Origin: Tychonema sp. LEGE 06208
Lineage (GTDB): Bacteria > Cyanobacteriota > Cyanobacteriia > Cyanobacteriales > Microcoleaceae
Assembly (NCBI RefSeq): GCF_015207505.1
Contig: NZ_JADEWT010000010.1
Location: forward strand, 1-64,000
Reading direction: 5' to 3'
DNA: 64,000 nt
The position numbers and the translations under genes are program-made. Of this stretch, positions 29,182-64,000 are shown in pieces (within the stretch, counting starts at the first letter, position 1; each line of letters begins with the position of its first letter). The notes beneath the pieces are model-generated. The model saw only the letters and a program-made list of their open reading frames with translations. It was not told the origin of the DNA and made no database searches.

Positions 29182-29290
29182 ATCGCTTTTTTCATCTCCA
29201 TCACTATTAATTGAGATTGTAACTGTTTGGTCGATCGACCAAAGTTCGGGATACACTACAAAATACCCACCTTGTGAGAATATCAGACTT

Positions 29291-33895: not shown

Positions 33896-34539
33896 TTAAT
33901 TGTGGATTATAGAGCGCAAAAATTGATATTTGCGCTGCCTTAAAAGTCCGCTAATTGGGAGCATTTCCGGCTGGGGAAAAAGCATTTTTTCTGGAAATTG
34001 CTGTCGGGAGCATCTGGTGTTTTGCATTTATAGTGCGATCGTCCCTGCTCGCGAGTACAATACGCCTGCAGGGACGATCGCACGCTCAATAAAAAAATGC
34101 TTTTTACAAAACACCAGATGCTCCCAGTGCTGTCGGGAACTCTGGTGCTTTACAAAGCACGCGAGCGGGGACTATTGTCTACTGTTTGTTGTTTTCTGTT
34201 TGCTGTTGAAGCGCAGGGGCGAAAAACCCGGTTTCTACACAATTTACGTTTGATAGCGAGAAATATACGACGAAGAAACCCGGTTTCTGAATTCAGCGCG
34301 CATCAGCCAACTAAGTTTTTAGCTCGCAGTATGAAAACCTTGATTTTCAATCAGGCATATCCTGTGCCTCAAGCGCCCCCGAAACCATGATTATACGGTG
34401 GGATGTCCAAAAACTCTCCGAAGTGTTGTTTCAAACCAACTCAAAAAAGTATATAATTATCTAAATATTTCACTCCCAGAAATCAAATAATTGTATTTGA
34501 GCGGATTTGCATTGGTACAGATAAATTTTCTTGAACTTT
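33896..34539. other. Repeat-rich intergenic region with MITE
   Basis: No supported gene. It contains the GGGAGCATCT element (34006-34125), then paired 'AACCCGGTTTCT' repeats at about 34227 and 34281. The AT-rich 34440-34530 stretch is probably the promoter region of the following histidine kinase. Confidence 0.55.
34006..34125. mobile_element. MITE-like foldback element with 19-bp perfect inverted ends
   Basis: The ends are GGGAGCATCTGGTGTTTTG (34006-34024) and its exact inverse (34107-34125). Nested inside is a second perfect inverted repeat, GTGCGATCGTCCCTGC (34033-34048) with its inverse at 34068-34083. The flanks are ATTGCTGTC on the left and AGTGCTGTC on the right, a possible 9-bp target duplication with one mismatch. 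The terminal ten bases match the elements at 1543 and 7354, but the interior does not. Confidence 0.75.
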
Positions 34540-37312: not shown

Positions 37313-40300
37313 TCAACATGGAAGTGAAATCGTAAATTCTGTACCTCGACCTAAAGTTGAGTTCACTTCTAGCATACCAGAGTGTTTCTCAACTACAATC
37401 TGCCGTGCGATCGCCAATCCCAACCCCGTGCCTTTCCCCACGCTTTTGGTTGTAAATAAGTGGTCAAATATCTTGTATTTGACCGATTCAGTCATCCCCA
37501 TACCATTATCAGCAATAGTGATTTTAACTAGATTATGTTCGACTGAACTGGTAATGGTAATGCAATTAGGATTGACTTTGATTTCCGTAAAAGTCCGCCC
37601 AATATTTGACTCATCTAAAGCATCGATCGCATTGGCCAGAATGTTCATAAACACCTGGTTAAGCTGTCCAGGAAAACATTCGATCGCAGGAATATTCCCG
37701 TAGTCTTTCACTACAACGATTGCGGGTCGCCGATCGTTGGCTTTCAATCGATATTTGAGAATTAAGATCGTGCTGTCTATGCCAGAGTGGATATTGAAGG
37801 GCACTTTGTAGTCTTTGTCAGCACGGGAGAAAGTGCGGAGCGTCGTGCTGATACCTTTGATGCGATCGCAGCCCAATTGCATCGAGTCAATCATTTTGGG
37901 CAAATCTTCGATGATATAGTCTAAATCAATCTCGACCGCATGGTCGGCAATGTTAGCAGCAGATGCTTGGGTGCGATACAAAGCTAGATGTTCTGTTAAA
38001 TCTTGAACTGTGCGCTTGGCTTCATTCAAATTGCCAGTTAGGAAGCCGACGGGGTTATTAATTTCATGAGCAACGCCAGCAACTAAGTTTCCCAATGCCG
38101 ACATCTTTTCGCTTTGAATCATTTGCAATTGGGTTTGCTGTAAGTTTTGTAAGGCTTGTTCTAGCTGTTGGGCATAGGTTTGCGCTTGCTGATAAAGTCG
38201 GGCATTTTCTATAGAAATTGCCGCTTGAGCGCATAACAGATTGAGTAATTCGACGCGATCGCTCGTGAACGCCCCCGTTACTAAATTATTTTCTAGATAT
38301 AAAATCCCCAGCAACTTCCCTTGATGCAAAATCGGGCTGCATAAAATACTCTTAGGCTGCTGACGAATAATATACGAGTCATTAGCTAAAGTCGGATCGG
38401 CGATCGCATCCAGCAGCACAACAGTCTGCCGATTGTGCTTGACTTTGTAAATCAGCTTCAGGGGAATGTCCTGGCTATCATCAACAGGAAGGCGTTGCAA
38501 CACAACTGGCTGCGTCCCTATAGTAATTGACCCTTTAATCAGCAGGCGCGAGTCTCGCAAGAGCATTAACACACACTTATCTGCTCCCGCATTTTCGATG
38601 ACTATAGAAAGTAACGATGCCAGCAGTTTTTCCAGTTCGATTTCACCTGAGATAGTTTGGGAAGCTTTGAGAATAGCAGCTAAATCTAGAGCAGTAGAGA
38701 CACTGCTACTGCTGGACGTGGCGGAACTGGTAGAGGTGACACTCCCCAAGGCGAAGATAGTTTCGTGAGTGGAGAGGGGAGAACGGGTTTGCTGGAGGAT
38801 GGGGGCGAGAAGTTGCCGATAGCGTCGTTCCAAGTCAGCGACTTTGGCTTTAGCTCCCCAACGGGCATAGCAGTAATATGCTTCTTGGATATATGCTTGG
38901 GCGACTTTTTCTTTCCCCCAATTGAGGTAAAATTTGGCGGCAAGTTCATTCCCTAGTGCTTCTTCTTGGATATATGCGTTTTCTTTTGCGGAGGCGATCG
39001 CACGATCGTAGTAATCCATTGCTTCATACATCTGCCCCAACACCCGATACTGCTCTGCTTCAACCAAATAAAATTTGTGTAAATGGTTTGTGGGTGCATG
39101 GTTTGCCCATTCTTTGAGCTTCTTCTGGTTGTCAATAACTTCCTGGGGGAGGCGATCGCATTCCCTACCTTGGGCGTTGGGTAACATAGCAAGATGGGTC
39201 AATGAATCGTAAAAGTGAAACACCGGAACCTTAAAACAGCCGGATACTCCACTCAAATATTGTTTGGCATCAACTGCCACTTTGATTGCTTGCTCCCACT
39301 CATTAAACAAGTAACAAAGAATTAATTTATTGATATACAATGCTCCCATTGCGTAAAGATCGTTGGCCTTCTGATGCAATGGCAACATCATTTGTTCGTC
39401 ATAGATTACACCTTGAATTTCCCACGGACACTTGCTCTGACCGAGCAAATTTAATACAGATTGGTAAAAGACTCTAAGATAGTTATGAGCGACTTCCTGT
39501 TTGAGTTGAGCTAAGGCCTGATTGTAAACCTTCATCTCTGGTTCTAGGATTGACAAATCTTTTCCTAGAAAAAAGGACAGCGAACAGTAATTGTAGGCAC
39601 AGTAGGCAGCATATTCTAAAGTACCCATCTCCAGACCGCTATGGTATCCGTCGAGCAAAGGAGCGAGTGAATCTTGAATATGATGTTTCCAGGGCTTCAC
39701 GAAGGGATAAACCATATTAATCGTGCTGGCTTTAAATTCTCTACTCTCAAAGCGTGATAGTAGTCCCATTGCCATTTGACCAACGCGATCGCCTAAATCT
39801 ATTTCTCCAATACCGCACAGAATTACTCCATACCAAGCATAAGCCTGTGCTGATACCGCAGCATTACCATATTCCACTGATAACCTAACCTGCTTGCACA
39901 CGATTAACGGCAGTAATTCTGGAACCGCTTGATAGACTGCGGCTGTCACAGTCGCCAAAATTCGGATTGCTGCCAGAGCTTGGACGTCTTTCATCTCAGG
40001 CAGTTCCAACAAATCTTCTAAATCTTTTCCTTTTAATAGATATTGAGTCTGTTGCAAACTTTGAGTAATCTCTGCGTCAGTGGGCTGCTCAGGAAACAAC
40101 ACTCCAAATAATTTCAAAGCAGAAAGAGCAGTTTTAATGGCTTTGGGCTGTTGGCTCTGGGCCACGTCAGCCAAAATTGTCACTTCATAGACCTTAACTT
40201 TGTCTAGTAATTGACGAGCATTTTGTACTACCTCATCAACTATCTGCTCCATTTGCCTAAAGTCACCGCTCAGACAAGCTACTTCTGCGGCTAAATCGTA

Positions 40301-42730
40301 CAGAGCCAAGGTTATGTCATAGCATTGCTGCCAACAACTTGCTGTGAGAAGTTGTATGCCTTGAGTGGCGTATTCAATTGCTGCGACGTAAGCGGTTGCA
40401 GATTTTGCCCTTTGTGCAGCAGCTAGATTTAGCTTTGCTAATTCCTCGCGTTCAGTTTCTGAGACAATTAAATCTGCTCCTTTATTTAATTGATTGACAA
40501 TCTCAAAGATTTTTTCCTCTTTTTCCGTCTCGCTCATTACACTTAAAAGCAATTGCCCACTTTTTAAGTGCGTCAGTTGTTTTCGATCGTCGGGAATCAG
40601 CGAATAAGCAGCTTGTTGTACTCGATCGTGTAAAAATTTGTATGTAACAGTCTGAGATTTTTCTGTAGTAACTGCTTGACTTTCTTGCCAGACATAAAAC
40701 TTATAAACATCGCTCAGCGGTAAAATTAGCCCTTCTTGTAACGCTTTCCATAAATCCGCAGCCGTTTCGATTTCCGATCGTTCTGAAACAATTGCCAAAG
40801 TTGCTAAATCAAACTGGTTGCCAATACAAGCAGCTAGCTGCAATATATTTTGAGTTGATGACGGTAGTTTTCGCAATTGCAATGCCATAAAAACCACAAT
40901 GTCATTAGTTACCGCTTGCTGATGTACTTGAGCAATATCACATTGCCAAGAGCCTAATTCAAAATCAAATTGAATGAGATTCTCTTGATACAATGCCTTG
41001 AGAAACTGGGTTACAAAAAACGGATTTCCTTGAGTTTTTTGATAAATTAATTGAGAAAGAGTCCATGCCAAATTTTCTGAACATTTAAGTGTGTCAGCAA
41101 CTAATTGATTTACTTTGACTTGACTCAGTGGCATCAAAGTAATCGTATTAATCGTTGCTTGTTTTTTTTGAATCTCACTCAAAGTCAACATCAATGGATG
41201 TGCCGGATTAACTTCGTTATCACGGTATGCACCAATTAACAAAAGATGACTTGTCTCAGTCATTAATAATTGTAGCAATTTCAGTGATGCTGAATCTGCC
41301 CATTGCAAATCATCTAAAAACATCACTAAAGGATGTTCAAAACTTGTAAAGACTTGGGTAAACTTTTGGAACAATAAATTAAATCTATTTTGTGCCGATG
41401 TTCCTGATAATTCTGGTGTGGGTGATTGCTTACCAATAATTCTTTCTAGTTCAGGGATGACTTCAATAATTACTTGTCCATTTTCTCCAACTGCTGATAA
41501 TATTTTGTTCCTCCATTGCTGAATTTGTGCATCACTTTCGGTTAACAATTGTCCCATTAAATCTCGAAATGCCTGTACAAAAGCACTGAAGGGAATATTG
41601 CGCTGAAATTGGTCATATTTCCCTTTGATAAAATAACCGCGTTGGCGAACAATAGGTTTATGAACTTCGTTGACAACTGCTGTTTTACCAATTCCCGAAA
41701 AACCTGCTACTAGCATCATTTCTGTTGCACCAAGGCTGACTCTTTCAAATGCTTGCAGTAGGGTTGATACTGCGGTTTCTCGTCCATAGAGTTGGTCTGG
41801 AATCAGGAAGCGATCGCATACATCCCTTCGCGCAATTTCAAAACTCTCAATCTTACCAGTTGCTTGAAGTTGAGTTAAACATTTTTCTAAATCAAACTTT
41901 AATCCCAATGCACTTTGATATCTATCTTCGGCATTTTTAGACATCAATTTGATCGCAATATCTGAAATCACCTGCGGAATTTCTTCCCTGTTCGGTAAAA
42001 GTGGTGGTTGTTTGGCAATATGACAATGTACTAACTCCATTATGTCATTTGATTCAAAAGGTAATTTCCCGGTGAGTAATTCGTAGAAGGTCACACCTAA
42101 AGAATAGAAGTCAGTGCGATAGTCAATTCCCCGATTCATTCGGCCTGTTTGTTCTGGGGAAATATAAGCGAGTGTCCCTTCTAATATATTGATATTTATC
42201 AAAGCTTGCGTTTCTCGCGGTAGCAAGGAGGCGATACTAAAGTCAATTAATTTGACTTGGTTAGTTTCGGGATTAATTAAAATATTGCTGGGTTTAATAT
42301 CTTTATGAATGATGCGATCGCGATACAATATATCTAAGGTGTTGCAGAGTGCGATCGCTATCACTAAAAACTCCCTCAAAGATAGTGCGTTCTTCCCTTT
42401 AATCGCCCATTCCTGAAGGGAAATCCCACCAAAATCTTCCATGATTAACGCATAGCCATTTTGGTAAGGTTCCAGGCTATAAGTTTGGACGATCAGAGGT
42501 GAGTTGAGATTTTTGGCAATGGTATATTGATTGCGAAACTGCACGAGTTCGCTAAAGGTAGGATAGTCATTTTTTAGCAGCTTGATGACGACAGGTAATC
42601 GATCGTGGTTACGGATGGCTCGATATACTAAGGTTCGACTTCCTGAATAAACTGTCTCGACAATTTGATAGTTGGGAATTTGAACGGTTGTGTGAGGTTT
42701 GCTGTTTTGATCAGAGTTATTAATGGTCAT
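37313..42730 (-). CDS. HstK-type Ser/Thr kinase-like/AAA ATPase/GAF/histidine kinase fusion, array gene A (last)
   Basis: A giant soluble signalling protein of 1805 residues. Order: Ser/Thr kinase fold at about 20-290 (Lys50 in VVIKLLK, HKDIKPSN with Asp144, DFS in place of DFG at 163-165); AAA_16 ATPase (Walker A GFSGIGKT 343-350, Walker B LVMFLDDLQWAD around 473); a long helical TPR-like region at about 600-1300; GAF (about 1370-1520); then HisKA (GVAHEINNP, His1555) and HATPase (ADNGMGM, GKGTGLGLA). It matches the HstK family known from Anabaena. It is the last gene of the right-to-left array, 69 bp after gene B, and its first 75 residues are nearly identical to those of B. Output partner unknown. 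Confidence 0.92.
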   Translation of the reverse strand: MTINNSDQNSKPHTTVQIPNYQIVETVYSGSRTLVYRAIRNHDRLPVVIKLLKNDYPTFSELVQFRNQYTIAKNLNSPLIVQTYSLEPYQNGYALIMEDFGGISLQEWAIKGKNALSLREFLVIAIALCNTLDILYRDRIIHKDIKPSNILINPETNQVKLIDFSIASLLPRETQALININILEGTLAYISPEQTGRMNRGIDYRTDFYSLGVTFYELLTGKLPFESNDIMELVHCHIAKQPPLLPNREEIPQVISDIAIKLMSKNAEDRYQSALGLKFDLEKCLTQLQATGKIESFEIARRDVCDRFLIPDQLYGRETAVSTLLQAFERVSLGATEMMLVAGFSGIGKTAVVNEVHKPIVRQRGYFIKGKYDQFQRNIPFSAFVQAFRDLMGQLLTESDAQIQQWRNKILSAVGENGQVIIEVIPELERIIGKQSPTPELSGTSAQNRFNLLFQKFTQVFTSFEHPLVMFLDDLQWADSASLKLLQLLMTETSHLLLIGAYRDNEVNPAHPLMLTLSEIQKKQATINTITLMPLSQVKVNQLVADTLKCSENLAWTLSQLIYQKTQGNPFFVTQFLKALYQENLIQFDFELGSWQCDIAQVHQQAVTNDIVVFMALQLRKLPSSTQNILQLAACIGNQFDLATLAIVSERSEIETAADLWKALQEGLILPLSDVYKFYVWQESQAVTTEKSQTVTYKFLHDRVQQAAYSLIPDDRKQLTHLKSGQLLLSVMSETEKEEKIFEIVNQLNKGADLIVSETEREELAKLNLAAAQRAKSATAYVAAIEYATQGIQLLTASCWQQCYDITLALYDLAAEVACLSGDFRQMEQIVDEVVQNARQLLDKVKVYEVTILADVAQSQQPKAIKTALSALKLFGVLFPEQPTDAEITQSLQQTQYLLKGKDLEDLLELPEMKDVQALAAIRILATVTAAVYQAVPELLPLIVCKQVRLSVEYGNAAVSAQAYAWYGVILCGIGEIDLGDRVGQMAMGLLSRFESREFKASTINMVYPFVKPWKHHIQDSLAPLLDGYHSGLEMGTLEYAAYCAYNYCSLSFFLGKDLSILEPEMKVYNQALAQLKQEVAHNYLRVFYQSVLNLLGQSKCPWEIQGVIYDEQMMLPLHQKANDLYAMGALYINKLILCYLFNEWEQAIKVAVDAKQYLSGVSGCFKVPVFHFYDSLTHLAMLPNAQGRECDRLPQEVIDNQKKLKEWANHAPTNHLHKFYLVEAEQYRVLGQMYEAMDYYDRAIASAKENAYIQEEALGNELAAKFYLNWGKEKVAQAYIQEAYYCYARWGAKAKVADLERRYRQLLAPILQQTRSPLSTHETIFALGSVTSTSSATSSSSSVSTALDLAAILKASQTISGEIELEKLLASLLSIVIENAGADKCVLMLLRDSRLLIKGSITIGTQPVVLQRLPVDDSQDIPLKLIYKVKHNRQTVVLLDAIADPTLANDSYIIRQQPKSILCSPILHQGKLLGILYLENNLVTGAFTSDRVELLNLLCAQAAISIENARLYQQAQTYAQQLEQALQNLQQTQLQMIQSEKMSALGNLVAGVAHEINNPVGFLTGNLNEAKRTVQDLTEHLALYRTQASAANIADHAVEIDLDYIIEDLPKMIDSMQLGCDRIKGISTTLRTFSRADKDYKVPFNIHSGIDSTILILKYRLKANDRRPAIVVVKDYGNIPAIECFPGQLNQVFMNILANAIDALDESNIGRTFTEIKVNPNCITITSSVEHNLVKITIADNGMGMTESVKYKIFDHLFTTKSVGKGTGLGLAIARQIVVEKHSGMLEVNSTLGRGTEFTISLPC

Positions 42731-42799
42731 AGTTTTTTGAGGATTTATGAGTGAGCGATCGCTTACATGAGTCCGAATACTAGGGAAGAATTAACTTGT
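42731..42799 (-). other. Array spacer B-A, identical to spacer C-B
   Basis: This 69-bp gap is identical to 48254-48322, including a GAGCGATCGCTTAC site. No terminator is present, so read-through transcription is likely. Confidence 0.75.
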
Positions 42800-45700
42800 T
42801 TATACCGCCTTGATGGGTAAGGTGATGATAAATTCTGTTCCTTTTCCTAGTATAGAGTTAACCTTCAGGGAACCGCCATGTTTTTCCTCAACGATTTGAC
42901 GCGCGATCGCCAACCCTAAACCAGTTCCTTTCCCTACACTCTTAGTAGTAAATAAATGGTCAAATACTTTTTGTTTGACTGATTCATTCATTCCCTTGCC
43001 ATTATCAGCAATGGCAATTTTAACGACCTTATCTTCTACTGAAGTTGTAATTGTAATTCTGTTGGAATTTGCTTTAGCCTCAGCAAAACTCCGCCCTATA
43101 TTTGATTCTTCTAAGGCATCGATCGCATTCGCCATAATATTCATAAATACCTGGTTAAGCTGTCCTGGGAAGCATTCGATCGCTGGAATATTCCCGTAGT
43201 CTTTGACTACTTCAATGGCGGGTCGCTCATCGTTAGCTTTCAATCGATATTTGAGAATTAAGATCGTGCTATCTATCCCCTCGTGGATATTAAAAGGAAC
43301 TTTGTAGTCTTTGTCAGCCCTAGAAAAGGTGCGGAGGCTCGTGCTGATATCTTTGATGCGATCGCAACCCAATTGCATTGAGTCAATCATTTTGGGCAAG
43401 TCTGCGATAATATAGTCTAAATCGATATCTTCGGCATGGTCTGCAAGCTCTGTTTCCGGGGCGCGAGATCGATAGAGATTGAGATGCTCCACTAAGTCTT
43501 GAACTGTGGATTTAGCTTCATTCAAATTGCCAGAAATAAAGCCAACGGGGTTATTAATTTCGTGAGCCACGCCAGCAACTAAGTTTCCCAATGCCGACAT
43601 CTTTTCGCTTTGAATCATTTGCAATTGGGTTTGCTGTAAGTCATGCAAGGCTTGCTCTAGCTGCTGAGCATAGGTTTGTGACTGTTCATAAAGTTGGGCA
43701 TTTTCTAGGGAAATTGCAGCTTGAGCACAGAGTAAATTCAGGAGTTCCACGCGATCGCTCGTAAACGCTCCCTTGGCTAAATTATTTTCTAGATATAAAA
43801 TGCCCAATAATTTACCTTGATGCAAAATCGGGTTGCACAAGATACTCTGAGGCTGTTGACGCACAATATACGGGTCATTCGCTAAAATCGGATCTGCTGT
43901 TGCATCAATCAACACAACAGTTTGATTACTGTGCTTGACTTTGTAAATGAGCTTGTGGGGGATGTCTTGACTCTCTTCAACCCCAAGGTTCTGCAACACA
44001 ACTGGCTGTGTTGCCTGGGTAATTGAGCCTTTAATTAGCAAGTGACTGTCTCGCAACAGCATTAATACACATTTATCAGCCCCAGCATTTTCAATGACGA
44101 TTCTCAGTAACGATGCAAGCAGTTTTTCGAGTTCGATTTCGCTTGAGAGAGTTTGAGAAGCTTTGAGAATCGCTTTTAAATCTAGAATATCTGAGACACT
44201 GGTGCTAGAACTGGAAGAAGTGGTAGATGTCACAGTTCCCAAAGTGAAGATAGTTTCGTGAGTAGAAAGAAGCGAACGGGTTTGCTTTAATATTGGCGCA
44301 AGCAATTGGGGATAGCGTTGTTCTAAGTCGGCGACTTTGGCTTTTGCTCCCCAACGGGCATAGCAGTAGTAAGCTTCTTGCATATATACTGCGGCAATTT
44401 TTTCTTTACCCCAATCGAGATAGAATTTAGCTGCAAGTTCATTTGCTAAGGCTTCGTCTTGGATAAAACCATTGGCTTTAGCGCCCGCAATGGCCCGCTC
44501 ATAGCCATCAATTGCCTCTGAGATATTGCCCAAAACTCGACATCTTTCTGCTGCCAAGAGAGCCACCTTGTGCTGGTGATTCATAGGGGCATTCTCTGCC
44601 CAGGTTGATAGGCTAGCGTGATGCTGTTCCGCTAAAGCAAGTAGTTGTAACTGCTCATCCTCAGACTTACCTGCTACCACCGCTAAATAGGTTAACCCCC
44701 CATAGAAATGCAAGGCGGGAATATGCAGCATTCCGACAATACTACCTAAATATTGGCTAGCTTCATTGAGATATTCAAGGGCGCGGTTATAATCACCAAA
44801 CAAATAAGCCAAGATCAGCTTGTAGGTGTAAGCAATCCCAAGACCTGTTAGTTGCTTATTTTGAAGGTACTGTGGAAATATTTTCGTCTCGTCATAAGCA
44901 TCTCCAATCAACAGAGTTGGTTGATGGGTTTTTTCAAGCAAGCGCCCAAACAATGCTTGGTTCATTGTTAAGAAGGCTAGGGCATTATCCTGCTTTAGTG
45001 AAGCAATGACCGAACAAAACTGAGCGATTTCTGATTGAAGGGCAGATAATTCCTTTCCGGCATAGAAATAAGCGTAAAAATAGTGGGCCATACAATAGCT
45101 TAAATACAAAAAGTCACCGACTTCTATTCCTACTAAATATCCCTGCTTGAGCAAAGCAGCCATAGAAATCATAGATTCTTTTTGATGCTGGACACAGGCA
45201 GCAAAATGAAGTATTGTCAAACACTTGTACGCTTTTGTATTGAGCCGATCGATTAAAGTTAAAGCCATTTTCCCCAAGTGATAGCCCCGCTCGACTTGAC
45301 CCAAGCCCGTCGTTAAGACCAAGCCATAGGTAGCATAGCCAACACTCGAAACAGGAGCATTGCCAAACTGGAGCGACAAGCTCACAATTTTTGCACAAAC
45401 AAAGGGCAGAAATGTAGGTCGAGCTTGTAATACCATTGGCATGATCGTTCCCAGCAGTTCCATTGCAGCAATTGTCGTCGGGTCAGTCATTACAGGCAAG
45501 TTGACCAAATCCTCAATGACTTTCCCCTCTAGCTCGACTTCCACATTTTGTATGGTTTGTTCGCTTAGGCTCGGTGTGATGTCTGAGGGAAATTCTATCC
45601 CCAATTGAGTGACGGCTTGAGCAGCAATGGCGATCGCATCCGCCAATTGATTCTGAGCCGTCAACACCCTGATTTGCACCATATAAACAGGCACTTTATC

Positions 45701-48253: not shown

Positions 48254-48322
48254 AGTTTTTTGAGGATTTATGAGTGAGCGATCGCTTACATGAGTCCGAA
48301 TACTAGGGAAGAATTAACTTGT
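48254..48322 (-). other. Array spacer C-B
   Basis: 69 bp, base-identical to 42731-42799. Part of the roughly 0.6-kb block shared between the two junctions. Confidence 0.75.
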
Positions 48323-54571: not shown

Positions 54572-54637
54572 AGCCGTTTTTGTTTGACAATTGATGAGTG
54601 AATAGTGGGTCAAATGAGTCTGAGTGCCAGGTAAAAA
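54572..54637 (-). other. Array spacer D-C
   Basis: 66 bp, clearly related to the other spacers: 'tgatgagtgaatagtgggtcaaatgagtctga' parallels the 'gagtgagcgatcgcttacatgagtccga' segment. No terminator. Confidence 0.6.
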
Positions 54638-57600
54638 TTAACTTGTTTGTTTTGCTTGAATTGGTAAGGTGATAATAAATTTTGTTCCTCGACCTGGTGT
54701 CGATTTAACCTTAATTGAACCGCCATGTTTTTCAGCGATCGCTTGATAGCTAATTGACAGCCCCAACCCTGTTCCTTTACCCACGGGTTTAGTTGTGAAA
54801 AAAGGATCGAATATGCGCGATAGGATTTTCTTTGGAATACCGACTCCGTTATCGGCGATGATAATCTGCACTTGTTTTTGTTCTGTCTTGACTGTGCTAA
54901 TCCAAATCCGATTCTGGTTGGTACTAATCTCTTGGAAACTACGCTTTCGATTGGTCTCTTCCAAGGCATCAATTGCATTCAGTATCAAATTCATAAACAC
55001 TTGGTTAATTTCTCTGGCGTAGCATTCGACCAAGGGCAGATCGCCATAGTTTTTGACAATTTCAATCGCCGGATGTTCTGCCTGTCCTTTGAGTCGATGC
55101 TGCAAAATCATTAAGGTGTTATCAATACCTTCATGGAGATTCACTGCTTTGTATTCTGATTCATCCAAGCGCGAAAAGCTGCGTAAAGATAGAACAATTT
55201 GCCGAATTCGCTCAGAACCGAGTTGCATCGATTCAAGTATTTTATGTAAATCCTCTGTCAAGAAATTCAATTCAGCAGTTTCTAGCTCTGCTTGCAGGGA
55301 TGCCGGTGGATTAGGATAGTGGGATTGATAGGAGCTTAATAACTGTAATAGCTGTTGTGTATATTGATGAATGTGATTTACGTTTCCATGAATAAAGTTA
55401 ATCGGGTTGTTAATTTCATGGGCAATCCCTGCTACCAGTTGTCCCAAAGCCGACATTTTTTCACTTTGCACCATCTGGGTCTGGGTACGATGTAATTCTT
55501 TTAAGGTCGTTTGCAGTTGGTCATTTTTTTGGTTTAATGCTTTGGTGCGTTCTTGCACCTTGTCTTCTAGTTCGGTGTACAACCTAGCATTCTCTAAGGA
55601 AATTGCTGCTTGTGACATTAATAAATTCAAAACTTCGAGCCGCCCGCGCGTAAATGCTGCCACGGTAAGGTTATTTTCCAAATATAAAATGCCAATCAAC
55701 TTACCTTGGTTAAGAATTGGCGCACACAGAATACTCTTGGGTGAATGGTGCAGAATATAGGGATCGGCCGCTAGGGTTGGCTCGATCGCTGCATTCTCGA
55801 TCGCAGCCAAGCAGAGAGTATTTTTGACCCGATTGATGAGGCTAACAGGTACTGTTTGACCATCGTCCAAGGGCAGCGAACGCAAAACAATGGCAGGCTG
55901 TTCGAGTTGGGATAATGCCTCAATTACCCAGAGATTGCCTTTTGGCATCAGCAACGCACATTTATCGGCTCCCGCATTTTTGAGTACTACCTGAAGTAGG
56001 GTTGAGAGTAATTTCTCCAACTCAATTTCACTCGACAGAGATTGAGAGGCTTGGATAATAGTAGCTAGATCGAGGGCTTCTGAGAGGCTAGTTTTATTGA
56101 AGGTGGAACTTTGGATCGTTGGAGAAATCATCCTTTCGGTCGGATTGGCAGACTGTGGCTGTCTTGACAGTATAGGTGCGAGTAGTTGGGGATAGCGGGT
56201 TTCTAAATCAACAACTTTAGCTTTTGCTCCCCAGCGGCTGTAACAGTAATAGGCATCAGTCATGTAGGATTGAGCGATTTTTTCTTTGCCCCAATCGAGA
56301 TAGAATTTGGCGACAACTTCGTTGGCTAAGGCTTCTTCGTTGAGGAATTGGTTTTCTTTGGCAAGTTGAATGGCGCGATCGTAATGTTCGATCGCCTCTG
56401 CTTTGTTGCCCAAAATCCGATACTTTTCTGCCTCAACTAAATGCCATTTATGCAAGTAATTCATTGGGGCATTTTGTGCCCACTGATGCAGAATCATTTG
56501 ATGAGTTTCTGCATCAGCAAGCATGGAGGCTGGCTCTGGTTGATTTGTAGGAACAACTGCCAGGTGCGTCAGGGCAGCATAGAAATGGAAAACGGGAATC
56601 AAAACCATTCCTGATACTGCCATCAAACAGGACTTGGCTTGGGTGATATAGTCGAGGCAAGCCTGATAATTGCCATACCAGTAAGCAAGTTGCAGCTTGA
56701 AAATGTAGGTATAGGCGATCGCCGTGAGATTATTATCCTGCTGATGCTTCGGCAGCATCACCGTTTCATCGTAGGCAGTACCCCTTAAGCAATCTGGTTG
56801 GCTCACCGTTTCTGTCAACTGTTGCATCGTTTGTCGCACGAATGACATAAGAAGATGAGCCGAATCTTGTTTCATTTGAACCATAGCAGCACTGTAAGCA
56901 GCCAATTCGGATGACAACGTTTCCAGGTCTACACCTGCGAAAAAAGCAATATAGGCGTAAACTAACAAGTTGTAGCTAGCGTAGAGAAAATCGCCAGTTT
57001 CCATGCCAGTCCTGTAGCCCTCTTTCAGTGTCGGTAGCATTCTTAACAGCGCTTGCTGGTGATGTTGGATAAAACACCCAAACTGGGCTAGAATCATGGA
57101 CTTCATTCCCGGAGCATTCAACCTCTCTAGCAACGAGAGTGCTAATTTACCAAACCCGTAGCCTGTTTCAACTTCGCCGAAAAAGGCACACAGCACCAAG
57201 CCATGAATCGTGTATCCGACCATCGAGGCGGGAGCATTGCCAAAGGAGAGCGACAACCGCACCATCGTCGCGCTCAAGAGGGGTACTAAACCTGGCCTTC
57301 CCATGTACACTGGGGCAAATAATATTCCTAACAGTTGTATTGCGTCTTGGGCGGTGCGATCGCTCATCACGGGCAGGTCAATCAGTTTGGCAATCTCTCT
57401 ACCGCTTTGTAGGTGCTTAAGGTCTTGTAAGGCTTTGCCAATATTGGCTGCGTCTACTTCGGTAGGGAATTCTACCCCCAATTGCGCTAGAGCCTCTGTT
57501 CCCACCGCGATCGCCTCTAACATTTTGCCCTGAGCAGTTAGTGCCGAAATTTGAATCTCGTAGATTTTTACTTTGTCGAAAATGGTCTGTGCTTGCTGCA

Positions 57601-60121
57601 AAACTAATGCCGCTAGTTGTTCCATACCCGCAAAGTCAGCATTCAAATAGCTGGCTTCCGTTGCTGCCACATACAGATTGAGAATCAATTCATACTGATG
57701 TTGCCAGCATTTTGTCTGTAATAGGTTAATCCCTGTTTGCAAATAAACTCTTGCTGCGCTGTAAGCTGTAGAATTTCTCGCCTTCAATCCAGCTTGCAAA
57801 TTCAGTTTAGCTAAGGTTTCGCGTTCCTCTGGTTGAGTAATTAACTCAATTCCTAAATTCAAATGCTCGACAATATCAAACAGTTTTTCTTCTCGTTCTA
57901 TTCCTGAACACTTTTCTTGAAGTAACTGTCCAATTTTGAGATGAGTTGCTTGTTTTTGCTCGTCAGGAATCAGGGAGTAAGCTGCTTGTTGCACCCGGTC
58001 ATGTAAAAATCTATAAATCGGATTAGCGGCTGCATCAAAAACTGAGGTAGTGTTAGAATCAATAAAGAACTTATAGATTTCTGTATTCGGAATAATCAAA
58101 CCTTCTTGTAGTGCTTTCCATAGATCGCTCGCTGTTCCTTCTAGGGATTTTTCTGAAACGATCGCCAGCGAATGCAAATCAAACTGCGCCCCAATACAAG
58201 CTGCTAGTTTAAGAATATCCTGAGTCTCGGTTGGCAATTTCTGCAATTGCAGGGCTAGAAACTCCACTACATCATCAGTAATTGCTAAAGCTTTGATTTG
58301 AGCGATATCGCACTGCCAAGAGCGTGTTACTGAGTCAAAAGTAATCTGTCCATCTTCATGCAATGCTTTAATAAATTGTGTGGCAAAAAAAGGGTTTCCC
58401 TTGGTTTTTTGGATCACCAATTTTGTTAGGGGTTGAGCTAGAGACAATTGGCAATTTAGCGTATCTGACACTAACTGATTCATATCTCCTAAACTCAATG
58501 GTGAAAGCGTAATTGTTTTCACCGTTATACCAGTTTTGACGATATCATCGATTGTCAATATCAACGGATGCACAGGCGAAACTTCATTATCCCGATACGC
58601 CCCCAAGATTAATAAATTTTCTGTCCCTTCCATTAATAATTGCAGCAATTTTAACGATGCGGAATCTGCCCACTGTAAGTCATCCAAAAACATCACTAAG
58701 GGATGTTCTTGGCGGCTAAAAACTTGCACAAATTTCTGCATTAGTAAATTAAAGCGATTTTGGGCAGCACTCCCCGACAGTTCTGTGGCTGGGGGTTGAG
58801 TTCCAATAATGCGTTCCAGTTCGGGAATCACCTCAATTAAGACTTGTCCGCTATCGCCAACGGCTTCGAGAATCTCGTTTTTCCAGGCTTGCAGTTGTGC
58901 ATCTGATTCACCAAGCAATTGCCCCATTAAATCTCGGAAGGCTCCCACGAATGCAGCCAAGGGAATATTTCGCTGAAACTGGTTATATTTGCCTTTAATA
59001 AAATAGCCTCGTTGTTTGACAATGGGCTTGTGAACTTCATTAATGACGGCGGTTTTACCAATCCCTGAGAAACCCGCTACTAACATTAGTTTGGCTTTGT
59101 CTTGGCTGACCTGATTCTCTTGGGGGGATGCTACGCGAACGAAGGCATCCAGTAAACTTTGCACTTCGGTTTCTCTACCGTAGAGTTTTTCAGGGATGAG
59201 GAAGCGATCGCTAATATCTCTTTTTCCGAGTGCAAAAGATTCGATATTTCCGGTTGTTTGTAATTGACCTAGACACAATTCTAGATCGTGCTTGATTCCC
59301 AAGCTACTCTGATACCGTCCTTCGGCATTTTTCGCCATTAACTTACTAATTATTTTAGATAAAACTAACGGGATATTAGGCTCAATTTTAGAGACTGGGA
59401 TGGCAGTTTGTGCTAAGTGACAATGCACCAATTCCATCGGATCGTTTGATTGAAATGGTAATTTCCCTGTCAGTAATTCATAGAAAGTTACACCTAAAGA
59501 ATAAAAGTCACTCCGATAGTCAATTCCCCGATTCATTCGACCTGTTTGTTCTGGGGAAATATAAGCAAGTGTTCCTTCTAATACATTGAGATTCATCAAA
59601 CTTGGCGTTTCTCGTGGTAGTAGAGAGGCGATACTAAAGTCAATTAATTTGACTTGTTTGGTCTCGGGATTTATTAAAATATTACTGGGTTTAATATCTT
59701 TATGAATAATGCGAGCGCGATACAATATATCTAAGGTATTGCAGAGGGCGATCGCGACATCTAAAAACTCCCTCAAATATATTTTTTTTTCTCCTTTCAG
59801 GGCCCATTCTTGAAGAGAAATACCTCCAAAGTCTTCCATCACTAACGCATAGCCATTTTGATAGGGTTCGAGACTATAGGTTTGGATGATTCCAGGTTGA
59901 AAAAGGTTTTTGGCAATGGTATATTGATTGCGGAACTCCACCAGTTCGCTAAAGCTCGGATAGTCACTTTTTAGGAGTTTGATGACAACAGGTAATCGAT
60001 CGTTGATACGGATAGCTCGATATACCAAGGTGCGACTTCCTGAATAAACTGTGTCGAGAATTTCATAGTTGGGAATTTGAATGGTTGTGTGAGTGTTGCT
60101 ATTTCTGTTAGAGTTATTCAT
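54638..60121 (-). CDS. HstK-type fusion with a different histidine kinase module, array gene D
   Basis: An 1827-residue paralogue. The kinase-like part (HKDIKPSN, DFSIAS), ATPase (GFSGIGKTAV, LVMFLDDLQWADSAS; an extra SPQENQVSQDKAK insert precedes Walker A), helical region and GAF follow the array pattern. A coiled coil (LEDKVQERTKALNQKNDQLQTTLKEL) then leads to a histidine kinase of a different subtype: GIAHEINNPINFIHGN, LSLRSFSRLDES and FDPFFTTKPVGKGTGLGLSISY. These resemble the neighbouring kinase at 34540-36738 (LSLRNFSRLDDS, FFTTKPLGKGTGLGLSIS) more than genes A, B, C and E (LRTFSRADKDYK, HLFTTKSVGKGTGLGLAIA). Domain replacement is the likely cause. Confidence 0.92.
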   Translation of the reverse strand: MNNSNRNSNTHTTIQIPNYEILDTVYSGSRTLVYRAIRINDRLPVVIKLLKSDYPSFSELVEFRNQYTIAKNLFQPGIIQTYSLEPYQNGYALVMEDFGGISLQEWALKGEKKIYLREFLDVAIALCNTLDILYRARIIHKDIKPSNILINPETKQVKLIDFSIASLLPRETPSLMNLNVLEGTLAYISPEQTGRMNRGIDYRSDFYSLGVTFYELLTGKLPFQSNDPMELVHCHLAQTAIPVSKIEPNIPLVLSKIISKLMAKNAEGRYQSSLGIKHDLELCLGQLQTTGNIESFALGKRDISDRFLIPEKLYGRETEVQSLLDAFVRVASPQENQVSQDKAKLMLVAGFSGIGKTAVINEVHKPIVKQRGYFIKGKYNQFQRNIPLAAFVGAFRDLMGQLLGESDAQLQAWKNEILEAVGDSGQVLIEVIPELERIIGTQPPATELSGSAAQNRFNLLMQKFVQVFSRQEHPLVMFLDDLQWADSASLKLLQLLMEGTENLLILGAYRDNEVSPVHPLILTIDDIVKTGITVKTITLSPLSLGDMNQLVSDTLNCQLSLAQPLTKLVIQKTKGNPFFATQFIKALHEDGQITFDSVTRSWQCDIAQIKALAITDDVVEFLALQLQKLPTETQDILKLAACIGAQFDLHSLAIVSEKSLEGTASDLWKALQEGLIIPNTEIYKFFIDSNTTSVFDAAANPIYRFLHDRVQQAAYSLIPDEQKQATHLKIGQLLQEKCSGIEREEKLFDIVEHLNLGIELITQPEERETLAKLNLQAGLKARNSTAYSAARVYLQTGINLLQTKCWQHQYELILNLYVAATEASYLNADFAGMEQLAALVLQQAQTIFDKVKIYEIQISALTAQGKMLEAIAVGTEALAQLGVEFPTEVDAANIGKALQDLKHLQSGREIAKLIDLPVMSDRTAQDAIQLLGILFAPVYMGRPGLVPLLSATMVRLSLSFGNAPASMVGYTIHGLVLCAFFGEVETGYGFGKLALSLLERLNAPGMKSMILAQFGCFIQHHQQALLRMLPTLKEGYRTGMETGDFLYASYNLLVYAYIAFFAGVDLETLSSELAAYSAAMVQMKQDSAHLLMSFVRQTMQQLTETVSQPDCLRGTAYDETVMLPKHQQDNNLTAIAYTYIFKLQLAYWYGNYQACLDYITQAKSCLMAVSGMVLIPVFHFYAALTHLAVVPTNQPEPASMLADAETHQMILHQWAQNAPMNYLHKWHLVEAEKYRILGNKAEAIEHYDRAIQLAKENQFLNEEALANEVVAKFYLDWGKEKIAQSYMTDAYYCYSRWGAKAKVVDLETRYPQLLAPILSRQPQSANPTERMISPTIQSSTFNKTSLSEALDLATIIQASQSLSSEIELEKLLSTLLQVVLKNAGADKCALLMPKGNLWVIEALSQLEQPAIVLRSLPLDDGQTVPVSLINRVKNTLCLAAIENAAIEPTLAADPYILHHSPKSILCAPILNQGKLIGILYLENNLTVAAFTRGRLEVLNLLMSQAAISLENARLYTELEDKVQERTKALNQKNDQLQTTLKELHRTQTQMVQSEKMSALGQLVAGIAHEINNPINFIHGNVNHIHQYTQQLLQLLSSYQSHYPNPPASLQAELETAELNFLTEDLHKILESMQLGSERIRQIVLSLRSFSRLDESEYKAVNLHEGIDNTLMILQHRLKGQAEHPAIEIVKNYGDLPLVECYAREINQVFMNLILNAIDALEETNRKRSFQEISTNQNRIWISTVKTEQKQVQIIIADNGVGIPKKILSRIFDPFFTTKPVGKGTGLGLSISYQAIAEKHGGSIKVKSTPGRGTKFIITLPIQAKQTS

Positions 60122-60192
60122 AGCTGTTGTTGTTTGAGAATTGATGGGTGAGTAATGGGTTAGATTAGTCTGAATGCTAGGGAAAAATTAAC
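60122..60192 (-). other. Array spacer E-D
   Basis: 71 bp with the same 'gatgggtgagtaatgggttag...ctagggaaaaattaactt' pattern as the other spacers. No terminator. Confidence 0.6.
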
Positions 60193-63100
60193 TTATTCTG
60201 CCTTCAGGGGTAAGGTGATGAGAAATTCGGTCCCTTCTCCTAGTAGAGAGTTGACTTGAATGGAACCGCTATGTTTTTCGACGATAATTTGACGTGCGAT
60301 CGCCAATCCTAATCCCGTGCCTTTTCCCACGCTTTTGGTTGTAAATAAGTGGTCAAAAATATTTGCTTTTACCTCATCTGCTATCCCTTGCCCGTTGTCA
60401 GAAATGCGAATAGTCACCCACTCCTTAGACTTCATTTCTGTCCGAATTGTGATGCAATTGGCTGGTGCTTTAATCTTCTCAAAACTCCCTTCCCGATTTG
60501 ATTCTTCCAGTGCATCAATGGCATTCGCCAATATATTCATAAACACCTGATTTAATTGTCCGGGGAAGCACTCAACTGATGGCAAGTTCCCATACTCTTT
60601 GACAACTTCAATCGCTGGACGCTGTTCGTTGGCTTTCAATCGGTGTTTGAGAATCAAAATCGTACTGTCAATTCCGTCATGAATATTGAAAGGAATTTTG
60701 TAGTCTTTGTCGGCTCTGGAAAAGGTACGAAGACTGGTGCTGATACCTTGGATGCGATCGCACCCGACTTGCATAGAATTCAACATTTTGGGTAAATCTT
60801 CTAAGAGATATTCAATGTCCATCTCTTCTGCTTTTTCTTCGATTTCGTCACCCGGACTGGAAAATTTTTCTTGGTAGAGTTGCAGGTATTCTGTAATATC
60901 TTTGACGGCGGCGATCGCTTCATGAATATTACCAGAAATAAATCCGACTGGATTATTAATTTCATGGGCTACCCCCGCTACTAAATTGCCCAAGGCGGAC
61001 ATTTTTTCGCTCTGTACTAATTGCAGTTGTGATTGTTCCACCTGGTAGGCATAGTCCTGGGCTTGCTGATACAATCGCGCATTTTCTAGGGAAATGGCAG
61101 CCTGGGTGCAGAGGAAGTTGAGGACGAGGAGGCGATCGCGAGTAAACACTCCTTTTGTCGATCGATGTTCCAGATAAAGTATGCCAACTAAGTTCCCGCG
61201 ATCGAGAATCGGAGTACATAGCATACTCTGAGACTGATACTGGAGCGTACAGTCATTCATTAAACCGGGAATATCGGTTTTGCCACCTTCAATAACCACA
61301 GTTTCCAGGGTATGTTTGACATAATAAACCAGCTTGAGCGGAATCACCGCCGAGCCATCTAGAGGTTGGGTTTGCAGTAGAGTTGTGGGTGGCTGGTTAT
61401 CTAGATTGATGTGAGTTATTGCCCGGATTTGCCATTCATCCTGATGGGGAAGTAGCAAAGCACAAGTTTCGGCCCCAGAAGTTTTTAAAATAATTTGGTT
61501 GAGGGTGCTGAGCAATTCATCAATCTGAATTTTACTGGATAAAGCTTGAGCCGCTTGCACAATAGATGCGAAATCAAGGGCATCAGAAATACTGGTGCTG
61601 CTATTACTGGAAGTATGCGAAGAGCGGCTAATCGTTGCCAGCGTCTCTAGGGGATTAAAGCGAAGTTTGGGCTGATTCAGGATGGGATGAAGTAACTGCG
61701 GATAGCGTTGTTCTAAGTCTTCAACTTTCGCTTTAGCACCCCAACGAGCATAACAGTAATACGCTTCCTGCATATAGCTGGCGGCAACTTTTTCTTTGCC
61801 CCATTCCAAGTAGAATTTGGCTGCGAGTTCGTTGGCTAATGCTTCTTCTTGGGTATAACCGTTTTCTTTGGCTCCTTGAATTGCTAAATCGTAAAATTCT
61901 AGAGCTTCTGTTTTGCAATTGAGTAATTGATGCTTTTGGGCTTCAACTAAATGGTATTTGTGCAAGTAATTCATGGGAGCATAATGCGCCCATTCTTTTA
62001 ACTTTGCTTGATTTTCTTGCATTCGCTGCCATCGAGGCTCCGACTCAGTTTTCGATTCACCAGGAGTGGCCAGCACAGTCAGAGAATCATAGAGGTATAA
62101 GATCGGTTCAACGATACTTCCCATCCCTCCAGCCAAATACTGTCGGGTTTGAGCAGCATCGTGTTCTGCTTTAGGAAAGTCTTCCAACCAGTAATTCAAT
62201 GTGAATCGATACAGGTAAAAGTAGGATAATCGATAAAAATCGACTTTTGCCTGGGCCAGGACTTTTTCTTCATAGTCATCCTGGCGTAAGGGAATCTCGT
62301 CCTCTGACTGACCCAAGAGAATTTGAGCCGCCTGCAAGTACGCCAAAACACAGTTTGCTGCTGTGACTTGGTGGAGGTCGCACAACTGTTGGTAATAAGC
62401 GCGAATTTGGGGTTCGAGTTCACTTAGCGGTTGACCGCACCAGTAGGCATTCAAGCAGTACAACTGTGCGTCGTAGCCCAGAAATTCTAGATTCCCAGTT
62501 TCCAATCCTGCTTGATATCCATCGAGAAGAATTGGCAGCGTTTCTTGCAAATGGATAGTCCACAGACCAACATATCCCCCCATTAACAGGGCTGTTGCCG
62601 ATCGAATATTTTTGGCATCTGGTTCTGAGGCGAGTTGGTATCCTAATTGCCCAAACTGAGGCACCTTTGTCATGTCTCCCCACAGAATTCTCAGTTGGAA
62701 GGCGTAACCAGCGTAGCAATAAGCCGAAACAGGACTGTTGCCAAATTGAATTGATAATTTGACTTGTAGCGCAACTATTAGGAAATAGAGCATTGAGCCT
62801 GTCATGTAACAGACGGGTGTAAGACGAGCCGCATTTTGCATAATGGCTAACTGCTGGGCATCAGTCATGTTTGGCAGATGAATGAATGTCTCAATTGACC
62901 GATCGCCAATTAAGGCATCGATTTCCTGCTTAAGCGGTCGAATATCCTCTAACGTTGGGCTGTCTGGCAGGTTCACTCCCAACATTTGGAAGACAGATTG
63001 ACCGATCGCGATCGCCTCTAAAAATTTATTGAGGGCTACCAATGCCTGAATTTTGACTTGATAAACTTGTACCCGTTCTAAAGGCGTTTTCGCACGATCG

Positions 63101-64000
63101 ATCACCGCTTCAATCCACTGGTGCATCTGCTCAAAATCGCCAGCCAAGAAAGCCACCTCGGCAGCTAAGTCGTGCAGGGATAGGGTGATTTCGTAATGCC
63201 GTTCCCAAGCGTCTGTTCCCAGCAGTTGCAGCCCCACTGTGGCATATTCGCGGGCTGCTTGATAGGCAGTTGCCGATCGGGCTTTGCGACAAGCAATGAG
63301 GTTGAGTTGTGCTAAATCGTCTCGTTCTGTTTGTTCTACAACCAGCGTCGTTCCGTAATTTAATTGATTGACTAATTCAAAAATGCGTTCTTCTCTAGCT
63401 TCTGGTGAAATCTGTTGCAGCAGCAGTTGCCCGATTTGATAATGGGCGATCGCGCGATCGGCTTGGGGAATCAAAGAATAAGCAGCTTGCTGGACGCGAT
63501 CGTGCAAGAAGCGATAGGCAACCGTTTGAGAAGTAGATTGAGAAATATTTTCTACCCCAATATAAAATTTATAAACTTCACTCTGAGGTAAAACAAAACC
63601 TTCCTGTAAAGTTTTCCACAATGCGGTTGCTGCTTCTGTCTCCGAAATTTGCGAAACAATTGCTAATGTTGTCAGATCGAATTGATTGCCAATGCAAGCG
63701 GCTAATTTTAAAACTGACTGAGTTTCAACGGGCAATTTCTGTAACTGCTGTGCCATGAATTCAACTACATCATCCGTCTGTGCGGCTTCTGTAACTTTGC
63801 TAATATCGCACTGCCAATATCCAGCTTTGACATTGAAAGTAATCAATTCATCTTGATGCAATGCCTTGAGAAACTGCGTCGCAAAAAATGGGTTTCCTTT
63901 TGTCTTCCGAGCCACTAATTCCGTCAGCGGTTCTGCCAATTTAGGCAAACAAGTTAGCGTATCTGCCACCAATTGATTCAAACTGGTTCGATCGAGCGGT
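60193..64000 (-). CDS. HstK-type fusion, array gene E, cut by the window end
   Basis: The 3' 3.8 kb of the first gene of the array. The frame is open to the window edge, with PLDRTS preceding the LNQLVADTL segment that aligns within the ATPase region of its paralogues. The visible part comprises the end of the ATPase, the helical region (AYYCYARWGAKAKVEDLEQRYPQLLHPIL), GAF (LCTPILDRGNLVGILYLEH), and HisKA/HATPase (GVAHEINNPVGFISGN, LRTFSRADKDYK, GKGTGLGLA). It ends LITLPLKAE. The Ser/Thr kinase-like and Walker A parts must lie beyond the window. The histidine kinase is of the A/B/C subtype. Promoter and first gene of the array are not visible. Confidence 0.9.
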   Translation of the reverse strand, partial: PLDRTSLNQLVADTLTCLPKLAEPLTELVARKTKGNPFFATQFLKALHQDELITFNVKAGYWQCDISKVTEAAQTDDVVEFMAQQLQKLPVETQSVLKLAACIGNQFDLTTLAIVSQISETEAATALWKTLQEGFVLPQSEVYKFYIGVENISQSTSQTVAYRFLHDRVQQAAYSLIPQADRAIAHYQIGQLLLQQISPEAREERIFELVNQLNYGTTLVVEQTERDDLAQLNLIACRKARSATAYQAAREYATVGLQLLGTDAWERHYEITLSLHDLAAEVAFLAGDFEQMHQWIEAVIDRAKTPLERVQVYQVKIQALVALNKFLEAIAIGQSVFQMLGVNLPDSPTLEDIRPLKQEIDALIGDRSIETFIHLPNMTDAQQLAIMQNAARLTPVCYMTGSMLYFLIVALQVKLSIQFGNSPVSAYCYAGYAFQLRILWGDMTKVPQFGQLGYQLASEPDAKNIRSATALLMGGYVGLWTIHLQETLPILLDGYQAGLETGNLEFLGYDAQLYCLNAYWCGQPLSELEPQIRAYYQQLCDLHQVTAANCVLAYLQAAQILLGQSEDEIPLRQDDYEEKVLAQAKVDFYRLSYFYLYRFTLNYWLEDFPKAEHDAAQTRQYLAGGMGSIVEPILYLYDSLTVLATPGESKTESEPRWQRMQENQAKLKEWAHYAPMNYLHKYHLVEAQKHQLLNCKTEALEFYDLAIQGAKENGYTQEEALANELAAKFYLEWGKEKVAASYMQEAYYCYARWGAKAKVEDLEQRYPQLLHPILNQPKLRFNPLETLATISRSSHTSSNSSTSISDALDFASIVQAAQALSSKIQIDELLSTLNQIILKTSGAETCALLLPHQDEWQIRAITHINLDNQPPTTLLQTQPLDGSAVIPLKLVYYVKHTLETVVIEGGKTDIPGLMNDCTLQYQSQSMLCTPILDRGNLVGILYLEHRSTKGVFTRDRLLVLNFLCTQAAISLENARLYQQAQDYAYQVEQSQLQLVQSEKMSALGNLVAGVAHEINNPVGFISGNIHEAIAAVKDITEYLQLYQEKFSSPGDEIEEKAEEMDIEYLLEDLPKMLNSMQVGCDRIQGISTSLRTFSRADKDYKIPFNIHDGIDSTILILKHRLKANEQRPAIEVVKEYGNLPSVECFPGQLNQVFMNILANAIDALEESNREGSFEKIKAPANCITIRTEMKSKEWVTIRISDNGQGIADEVKANIFDHLFTTKSVGKGTGLGLAIARQIIVEKHSGSIQVNSLLGEGTEFLITLPLKAE

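Follow-up and report, generated by a model that had tools for sequence, protein, structure and literature searches.

HstK of the cyanobacteria was reportedly described in 2001. The HstK/cbSTKIII proteins of heterocystous cyanobacteria (Alr2258 HstK and the Pkn40/Pkn41 pair) carry a Ser/Thr kinase (STK), GAF, and HisKA/HATPase in one chain (PMC2176072). In its sections on this group, the survey describes a KD-type kinase with a Glu-to-Gln change in subdomain III in 27 sequences, as well as shuffling of HisKA and GAF. In the same sections, only GAF, PAS/PAC, and HisKA are named beyond the kinase, the approximately 1000 residues in between are left untreated, and one adjacent, co-transcribed pair is known (PMC2176072), in contrast to the arrays of 3-6 genes reported here. 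Here we analyze an array of five HstK-type genes in Tychonema sp. LEGE 06208, which lies at the end of a 64,000-nucleotide stretch of contig NZ_JADEWT010000010.1 (the window). Comparison with relatives suggests that this and similar loci are HstK (cbSTKIII) receptor arrays of variable copy number, whose members exchange arm-sensor modules by recombination while keeping a common chassis. We give this reading a probability of roughly 0.7.

The array spans positions 37313-65562 of the contig and consists of exactly five genes, all on the minus strand. For convenience, they are numbered from member 1 to member 5 or named by their first coordinate; G000 and C11 denote the genome and contig of the window, and other G and L numbers denote other genomes and loci. 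Member 1 (37313-42730, 1805 residues) and member 2 (42800-48253, 1817 residues) share the order STK, STAND nucleotide-binding oligomerization domain (NOD), arm and TPR sensor, GAF, and histidine kinase (HK). Member 3 (48323-54571, 2082 residues) has PAS domains between GAF and HK; its open reading frame (ORF; 48323-54613) opens with TTG, and the ATG at 54571 gives the 2082-residue protein. Member 4 (54638-60121, 1827 residues) has a different type of HK. Member 5 (60193-64000) is cut by the window edge and is complete in the genome as G000:C11:60193-65562 (1789 residues, GTG start).

In each of the four members that the window contains whole, Pfam detects Pkinase, AAA_16, GAF, and HATPase_c. 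The motifs HKDIKP and FRNQY are present in all five kinase domains, indicating a KD-type kinase with Gln in subdomain III, and each of the five has DFS in place of DFG. The nucleotide-binding domain (NBD) combines the AAA_16 match with the Walker A/B-type motifs GFSGIGKT and DDLQW. The Pfam match to HisKA is weak in members 3-5 and unreported for members 1 and 2, yet the H-box, N-box, and G-boxes are found in 5/5 members, the H-box also where HisKA is missing. The PAS domains of member 3 are detected by Pfam, and among the best 25 NCBIfam matches per protein the one model to exceed its cut-off is a PAS-box model in this member. The HATPase of member 4 is at most 56% identical to that of every other member, compared with 64-83% among the other four. 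In the dimerization and histidine phosphotransfer (DHp) region (approximately residues 1540-1640 of 37313-42730), the HisKA match is weak or fragmentary in the array members. In member 3 and in the nearby gene 34531-36738, 95 residues are matched over 63 profile positions, as if approximately 30 residues were inserted in the DHp hairpin.

The long middle part was modeled with AlphaFold2, using alignments of 92 and 91 of the 101 usable locus rows plus four window rows. The models of residues 300-1335 of member 1 and of the corresponding sensor region (the cassette, see below) of member 2 have a predicted local distance difference test score (pLDDT) of 87 and 92 and a predicted template modeling score (pTM) of 0.68 and 0.88, respectively. 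In the models, the Walker-type NBD is followed by a winged helix, assigned by predicted structure and position, and the NOD is followed by an arm and a TPR-like superhelix. The best Foldseek match of the member 1 model is 6mfv, a STAND protein whose sensor is of the TPR type (E 5.4e-9, template modeling score 0.28 on the query, TMq, and 0.39 on the target, TMt), followed by Cdc6/Orc1 and, lower, CED-4. MalT domain III (1hz4) is matched with a TMt of 0.64 (rank 43) by the member 1 model and 0.63 (rank 28) by the cassette alone. STAND proteins, in the parts of the review that treat their layout, comprise a NOD, an arm, and a sensor that is not conserved and that in several cases contains the primary inducer site (Lisa et al. 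2019, PMC6468293). We therefore describe the array members as giant cytoplasmic STAND receptors with an N-terminal Ser/Thr kinase, an NBD core with winged helix, and a C-terminal GAF and histidine kinase output. The arm and the TPR-like superhelix are likely the ligand sensor, and by analogy the TPR block may bind the ligand; the literature matches listed name no ligand for the family.

These results agree with most of what an earlier note, made from the letters of the window, had claimed for the proteins. It had described five same-strand paralogues of a known cyanobacterial family, four complete with 1805-2082 residues and the fifth cut by the edge, and the contig followed past position 64000 adds the rest of the fifth and no sixth array member. 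The Ser/Thr kinase, AAA ATPase, GAF, and histidine kinase that it had placed in one chain are all detected, its helical repeats correspond to the predicted superhelix, and its PAS-expanded and HK-swapped members are members 3 and 4.

The arm-sensor block, or cassette, corresponds to residues 715-1250 of member 1 (38981-40588, approximately 536 residues). By alignment or offset, it lies at approximately 44474-46078 (mapped from the alignment), 50810-52423, 56354-57952, and 61850-63460 (by offset from member 1) in members 2-5, all on the minus strand. In 100-residue windows, with positions counted on the first protein of a pair and PAS inserts disregarded, identity among the five members is 47-96% in residues 1-800, 21-69% in 801-1200, and 34-93% in 1201-1800. 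In the whole family, the helical block is the most variable part, with a median pairwise identity of 32% in its helB segment and 67% in STK.

Orthologues in the slot of member 5 carry different cassettes between similar ends. In G000 (60193), G002 (6993), G012 (92889), G011 (2254819), G018 (3608351), and G020 (4854262), synonymous divergence (dS) is 0.17-0.35 in STK, 0.09-0.20 in GAF, and 0.11-0.52 in HK. The same slot holds four cassettes, one shared by G000, G002, and G012 and one each in G011, G018, and G020. Between these groups helB is 27-44% identical with saturated dS; inside the first group it is 86-95% identical. Part of helA is common to G018 and the first group (66%, dS approximately 1). 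Between G018 and G020, both single-contig genomes, the dS of this gene is 0.16 in the kinase, 0.82-1.12 over residues 241-720, saturated over 721-1200, 0.76 over 1201-1320, and 0.09-0.12 from residue 1321 on. Two neighboring orthologue pairs have a dS of 0.02-0.38, the last short window excepted.

We extended the comparison to 159 ORFs longer than 1500 residues (50 of the 51 long ORFs from the window genome and genus loci and 109 of the 119 HstK-like ORFs from other loci). Among 24 pairs with a dS below 0.35 in both STK and HK, seven are mosaic, three intermediate, and 14 uniform. The largest cluster of cassettes, comprising 43 proteins by single linkage at 60%, is combined with seven HK groups and 16 STK groups. 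In a tandem pair on contig C208 of the window genome, the cassettes precede a cyclase and share 56-63% identity with the cassettes of members 3 and 4. The varied inputs on a shared core proposed in the earlier note are supported more strongly than the letters alone could show, since exchange affects the very block that acts as the likely sensor. Positive selection on this block was considered and is not favored, with a dN/dS of 0.03-0.58 in the unsaturated middle windows (721-1320) of six pairs.

The exchange recurs at similar positions. A two-changepoint model on third codon positions places the median breakpoints at residues 710 and 1284 in 32 reverse pairs and at 713 and 1272 in 16 forward pairs, and the right breakpoint falls within 1220-1310 in 23/32 reverse and 15/16 forward pairs. 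The commonest left breakpoint adjoins a conserved stretch of member 1, FLHDRVQQAAYSLIP (residues 699-713, 40592-40636, minus strand), and a second conserved stretch (residues 1257-1308, 38807-38962, minus strand) lies at the right breakpoint. In 1500 random pairs, nucleotide identity peaks locally at both stretches (73% and 71-72%, respectively). The commonest left breakpoint lies at the expected boundary between the winged helix and the arm, so the exchanged unit is probably the arm plus the sensor, which must fit the core together. Separate trees for the N-terminal, cassette, and C-terminal portions, built from 41 of 42 proteins picked by hand, reject each other in all six comparisons (approximately unbiased (AU) test, p <= 4e-6; log-likelihood differences 1637-4825).

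Cassettes are also shared across orders. The cassette of member 1 is 89-92% identical (dS 0.27-0.35) to those of five Nostocales proteins (L023, L024, L025, L027, and L031). The C-terminal parts of the same proteins are 60-77% identical to that of member 1 (dS 1.3 to saturated) and the N-terminal parts 66-82% (dS 0.76 to saturated). Over the first 700 residues, L027 and L031 are 66-67% identical to member 1 and dS is saturated, and L023-L025 are 80-82% identical with a dS of 0.76-0.88. The M17 aminopeptidase gene and an IMPDH-like gene are saturated between G000 and the same five genomes (proportion of synonymous differences 0.73-0.77); within the genus, the dS of the former is 0.34-0.38. Among the 16 array genes of the window, Kamptonema, and G019, member 1 is closest by amino acids to a Kamptonema member in the kinase (89%, dS 0.51) and the winged-helix part (87%, dS 0.21), although the kinase dS is lower to its neighbor 42800 (0.33). 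The M17 aminopeptidase and IMPDH-like genes have a dS of 1.78 and 1.10 to Kamptonema. Because these parts of member 1 are closer to Kamptonema than the two housekeeping genes are, array genes may move between genomes too.

Member 1 as a whole has matches in 156 of 72,556 plasmid records (E <= 1e-100), among them a tandem HstK pair on the conjugative plasmid pNsp_a of Nostoc sp. ATCC 53789, and HstK genes on plasmids make a possible vehicle for transfer. The two HstK genes of L152, a conjugative Nostoc plasmid, have cassettes that are not close to those of the window (at best 44% for one, the other being 92% identical to L090). A plasmid donor of the member 1 cassette was sought in the same records and dropped, one 122-base match alone being found at the sensitivity used. 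The records of the phage collection contain no match to the cassette. Seventy-four Rhizobium plasmid records match member 1 (E <= 1e-100), placing related proteins well outside the cyanobacteria.

Arrays of this kind are not unique to the strain, nor is their size here special, as the earlier note had supposed. Among 23 other genomes of the genus, fragmented drafts included, runs of two or more HstK genes occur in nine and runs of three or more in five, as read by eye from the same-strand spacing of matches and, for the latter five, also from the ORFs: five genes each in G006 and G019 and three each in G011, G018, and G020. In Kamptonema sp. UHCC 0994, six complete genes follow each other, separated by spacers of 61-74 bp. 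Of 88 HstK-bearing loci, 21 contain two or more HstK-like ORFs, which need not be neighbors or lie on the same strand; 78 of the 88 loci, including all 21, come from a general collection of genome contigs and ten from the genus.

In the genus, the array interval is flanked by cydAB on one side and by a PAS/HK gene and the M17 aminopeptidase gene on the other. It holds two members in G002 and G012, three in G011 and G020, four in G018, and five in the window genome. Relics of the C-terminus of member 1, interrupted by stop codons or frameshifts, come after the last gene of the locus at the same place in G020 (92% nucleotide identity), G011 (83%), and G018 (83%). Of the expanding sensory locus proposed in the earlier note, the variation in copy number is supported and simple expansion is not; the relics suggest that members have probably been lost as well as gained. 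Downstream of the window array lies the gene 34531-36738, which has ETR1_N, PAS, and HK domains. Upstream are a 279-residue ORF (66091-66930) with a weak match to M48 peptidases and a penicillinase-repressor-like gene, and four further genes separate the array from cydAB. The four interval members of G018 are split 1+3 by three other genes. A three-gene set between HstK genes is found at L101:16202-20000 (G018), L112:11876-16388 (G010), and L150:14903-20000 (G048). It comprises a substrate-binding protein, whose family differs, a hybrid histidine kinase with receiver, and a gene of 427-446 residues, which is a receiver plus HK in G010, scanned alone. The set is a possible partner system.

The window genome encodes 18 HstK-type proteins in all. 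The sixth on the contig is solitary (G000:C11:81080-87580, L010, plus strand, 2166 residues), lies approximately 15 kb upstream of the array, and has PAS, HisKA, HATPase, and a C-terminal receiver, as in a hybrid HK. The C208 pair (G000:C208:18822-24572 and 24757-30168, L011) is a second tandem, whose two proteins are 81% identical to each other and end in GAF and an adenylate/guanylate cyclase, with no HK there. The contig ends approximately 600 bases away, and the tandem may extend past this point. Another solitary gene (G000:C73:315-5783, L018) has as its closest relative the first member of the five-gene array G019:C107:15490-44048. A second array hidden behind the break of contig C73 was considered and dropped, as the 314 bases past the HstK stop match no HstK start.

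Swapped cassettes are not the only way to reach divergent middles between similar ends. Whole genes could have been duplicated or acquired and their kinase and HK ends homogenized by gene conversion, the middle keeping its old divergence. In accordance with such concerted evolution, the ends of neighbors are near-identical, and the junctions between members 2 and 1 (42363-42938) and between members 3 and 2 (47886-48461) share exact repeats of 228, 194, and 127 bp that cover the kinase start, the spacer, and the HK end, the 228-bp tract running over spacer and start. These repeats are a recent conversion or duplication tract; ungapped DNA comparison is informative mainly for these two junctions, other pairs being out of register. 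Likewise, the dS of the C208 pair is 0.03 in one window near the C-terminus, compared with 0.8-0.9 in the middle, and the N-terminal dS of L023-L025 is below that of the saturated housekeeping genes, as expected after whole-gene transfer. However, the ends of the G018/G020 pair have a dS of 0.09-0.17, about that of the nearby orthologue cydA (0.12), so it is the middle that changed there. In addition, L027 and L031 share the middle alone with member 1 across orders, which means that either the middle was transferred or both ends were later replaced. We consider concerted evolution possible as the main process, though on balance unlikely. A family of ordinary paralogues with a fast-evolving sensor, under relaxed or positive selection and with no exchange, would account for the high variability of the helical block. 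Yet the middle is synonymous-saturated where the ends are not and conserved where the ends are saturated, which contradicts a lack of exchange; the helB dS of 0.08-0.37 in the 14 uniform pairs and the AU tests also argue against it, and we regard this explanation as very improbable. Several points weigh against cassette exchange as stated above. The seven strict forward mosaics all trace to a single orthologous slot, in five genomes, and 14 of the 24 close-ended pairs are uniform through the cassette and three intermediate; exchange is therefore not a constant process. The left breakpoint is poorly confined (within 690-760 in 18/32 reverse and 8/16 forward pairs) and falls at 310-350, the start of the NBD, in 6/16 forward pairs, so that both breakpoints lie in the expected ranges in 16/32 reverse and 8/16 forward pairs. 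In the slot of member 5, the AAA part switches type on its own (G000, G002, and G018 versus G011, G012, and G020). A few reverse pairs have likelihood ratios (50, 59) not above that of the strongest uniform pair (64), the pair classes, based on dS in three domains, and the domain limits were set after a first look at the data, and the pairs share sequences and are not independent. The fold matches are distant, with a TMq of 0.28 for 6mfv, and Foldseek with the cassette alone puts eukaryotic TPR proteins ahead of MalT. By sequence, the cassette finds no match in the PDB as a single sequence and one as a profile, which is not credible (E 0.92).

An assembly artefact (collapse, expansion, or a chimeric contig) could mimic an array, since G000 is a draft of 232 contigs and the exact repeats joining members 1-3 could have mis-set the inner order. 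The longest exact repeat inside the array is only 228 bp, however, and member pairs are 52-66% identical over the full protein, differing by 34-48%; therefore, they are not assembly copies. The arrays of six in Kamptonema (on one 54-kb contig) and five in G006 and G019, as well as the three in a row at the same locus in the single-contig genomes G018 and G020, argue in the same direction, and the relics in three relatives support the outer junction. An artefact is hence highly unlikely. The members could also form hetero-oligomers with a shared core, as the earlier note had suggested, from one transcript, a design that the same strand and the short spacers would suit. The spacers at 42731-42799 (69 bp, between members 2 and 1), 48254-48322 (69 bp, identical to the former), 54572-54637 (66 bp, between members 4 and 3), and 60122-60192 (71 bp, between members 5 and 4), all read on the minus strand, align mutually and with the spacers of Kamptonema and G019, as expected from the 66-71 bp homologous spacers of the earlier note. 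Sequence scans, which are no proof of one transcript, find no promoter- or terminator-like site on the minus strand in any of the four, and terminator-like sites overall are at chance level (18 versus 17.7 and 7 versus 7.4 expected). In the sections cited here, STAND proteins are said to oligomerize once triggered (PMC6468293) and the Anabaena pair alr0709/alr0710 to be co-transcribed (PMC2176072). On the other hand, many relatives of the members are solitary genes, and we think hetero-oligomers from one transcript doubtful.

In the probable mechanism, a cytoplasmic ligand would bind the TPR superhelix and release the autoinhibited core. By analogy with STAND proteins, the core would then open and oligomerize, and the ATP-bound oligomers would gather and activate kinases and HKs, with GAF as a second input. 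Homologous recombination among members, other loci, and horizontally acquired genes, presumably of the RecA type, would exchange the block from approximately residue 710 to 1280 (1.6 kb), in some pairs along with the nucleotide-binding core from approximately residue 315. The kinase and HK ends would stay alike or become homogenized, retargeting the input and keeping the output, which can itself differ, as a cyclase (C208 pair) or a hybrid HK with receiver (81080 protein). If the arm-TPR block is an exchangeable sensor, ligand screens would be possible on the block alone, natural chimeras would mark where it can be cut, and the array would illustrate a way for bacteria to change their inputs and leave the outputs as they are. 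Diversification of receptors through cassette exchange in a two-component setting would be uncommon among bacteria.

HstK, its co-transcribed pair, and the shuffling of HisKA and GAF are already known from the sections of the survey cited above (PMC2176072). Among the literature matches listed, from which subscription papers are mostly absent, no report of arrays of at least three HstK genes or of middle-block exchange was found. With the STAND proteins MalT and PH0952, which have a TPR sensor, the array proteins share the order NOD, arm, and TPR sensor and the fold matches 6mfv and 1hz4. Unlike MalT and PH0952, they have a protein kinase and a histidine kinase or cyclase as effectors, and their sensors are swapped between genes. 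Fungal group X histidine kinases (Candida Chk1 and fission yeast Phk/Mak) also join a Ser/Thr-kinase-like domain, an ATPase region, GAF, and HK in one chain. They are known as single genes with a receiver, not as arrays, and the likeness to HstK is one of described domain order. Displacement in Rhs and polymorphic toxins, as outlined in parts of the two sources, likewise combines a conserved chassis with an exchangeable module (PMC2935791, PMC3482391). It replaces a C-terminal tip, whereas the HstK genes swap an internal sensor in frame between two conserved ends. An Avs- or NLR-like anti-phage defense system was considered and rejected: in a PADLOC scan of members 1, 2, and 4 (34, 36, and 34 families matched), no defense model beyond generic kinases is found among the best 25 matches each, and the best-matching stretches are confined to residues 5-382, almost all of them inside the kinase domain. 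The NLR clusters of plants and fungi are tandem arrays of STAND receptors with a variable sensor and a conserved core, mosaic through recombination. Unlike in NLR clusters, the output of the HstK array is two-component and kinase signaling, and immunity is unsupported. We tentatively suggest, as a less than even prospect, that HstK arrays are a bacterial counterpart of NLR clusters, generating receptor diversity via cassette exchange through conserved flanks, from a cross-order pool and with interchangeable outputs (histidine kinase, hybrid kinase, and cyclase), possibly for changing biotic signals.

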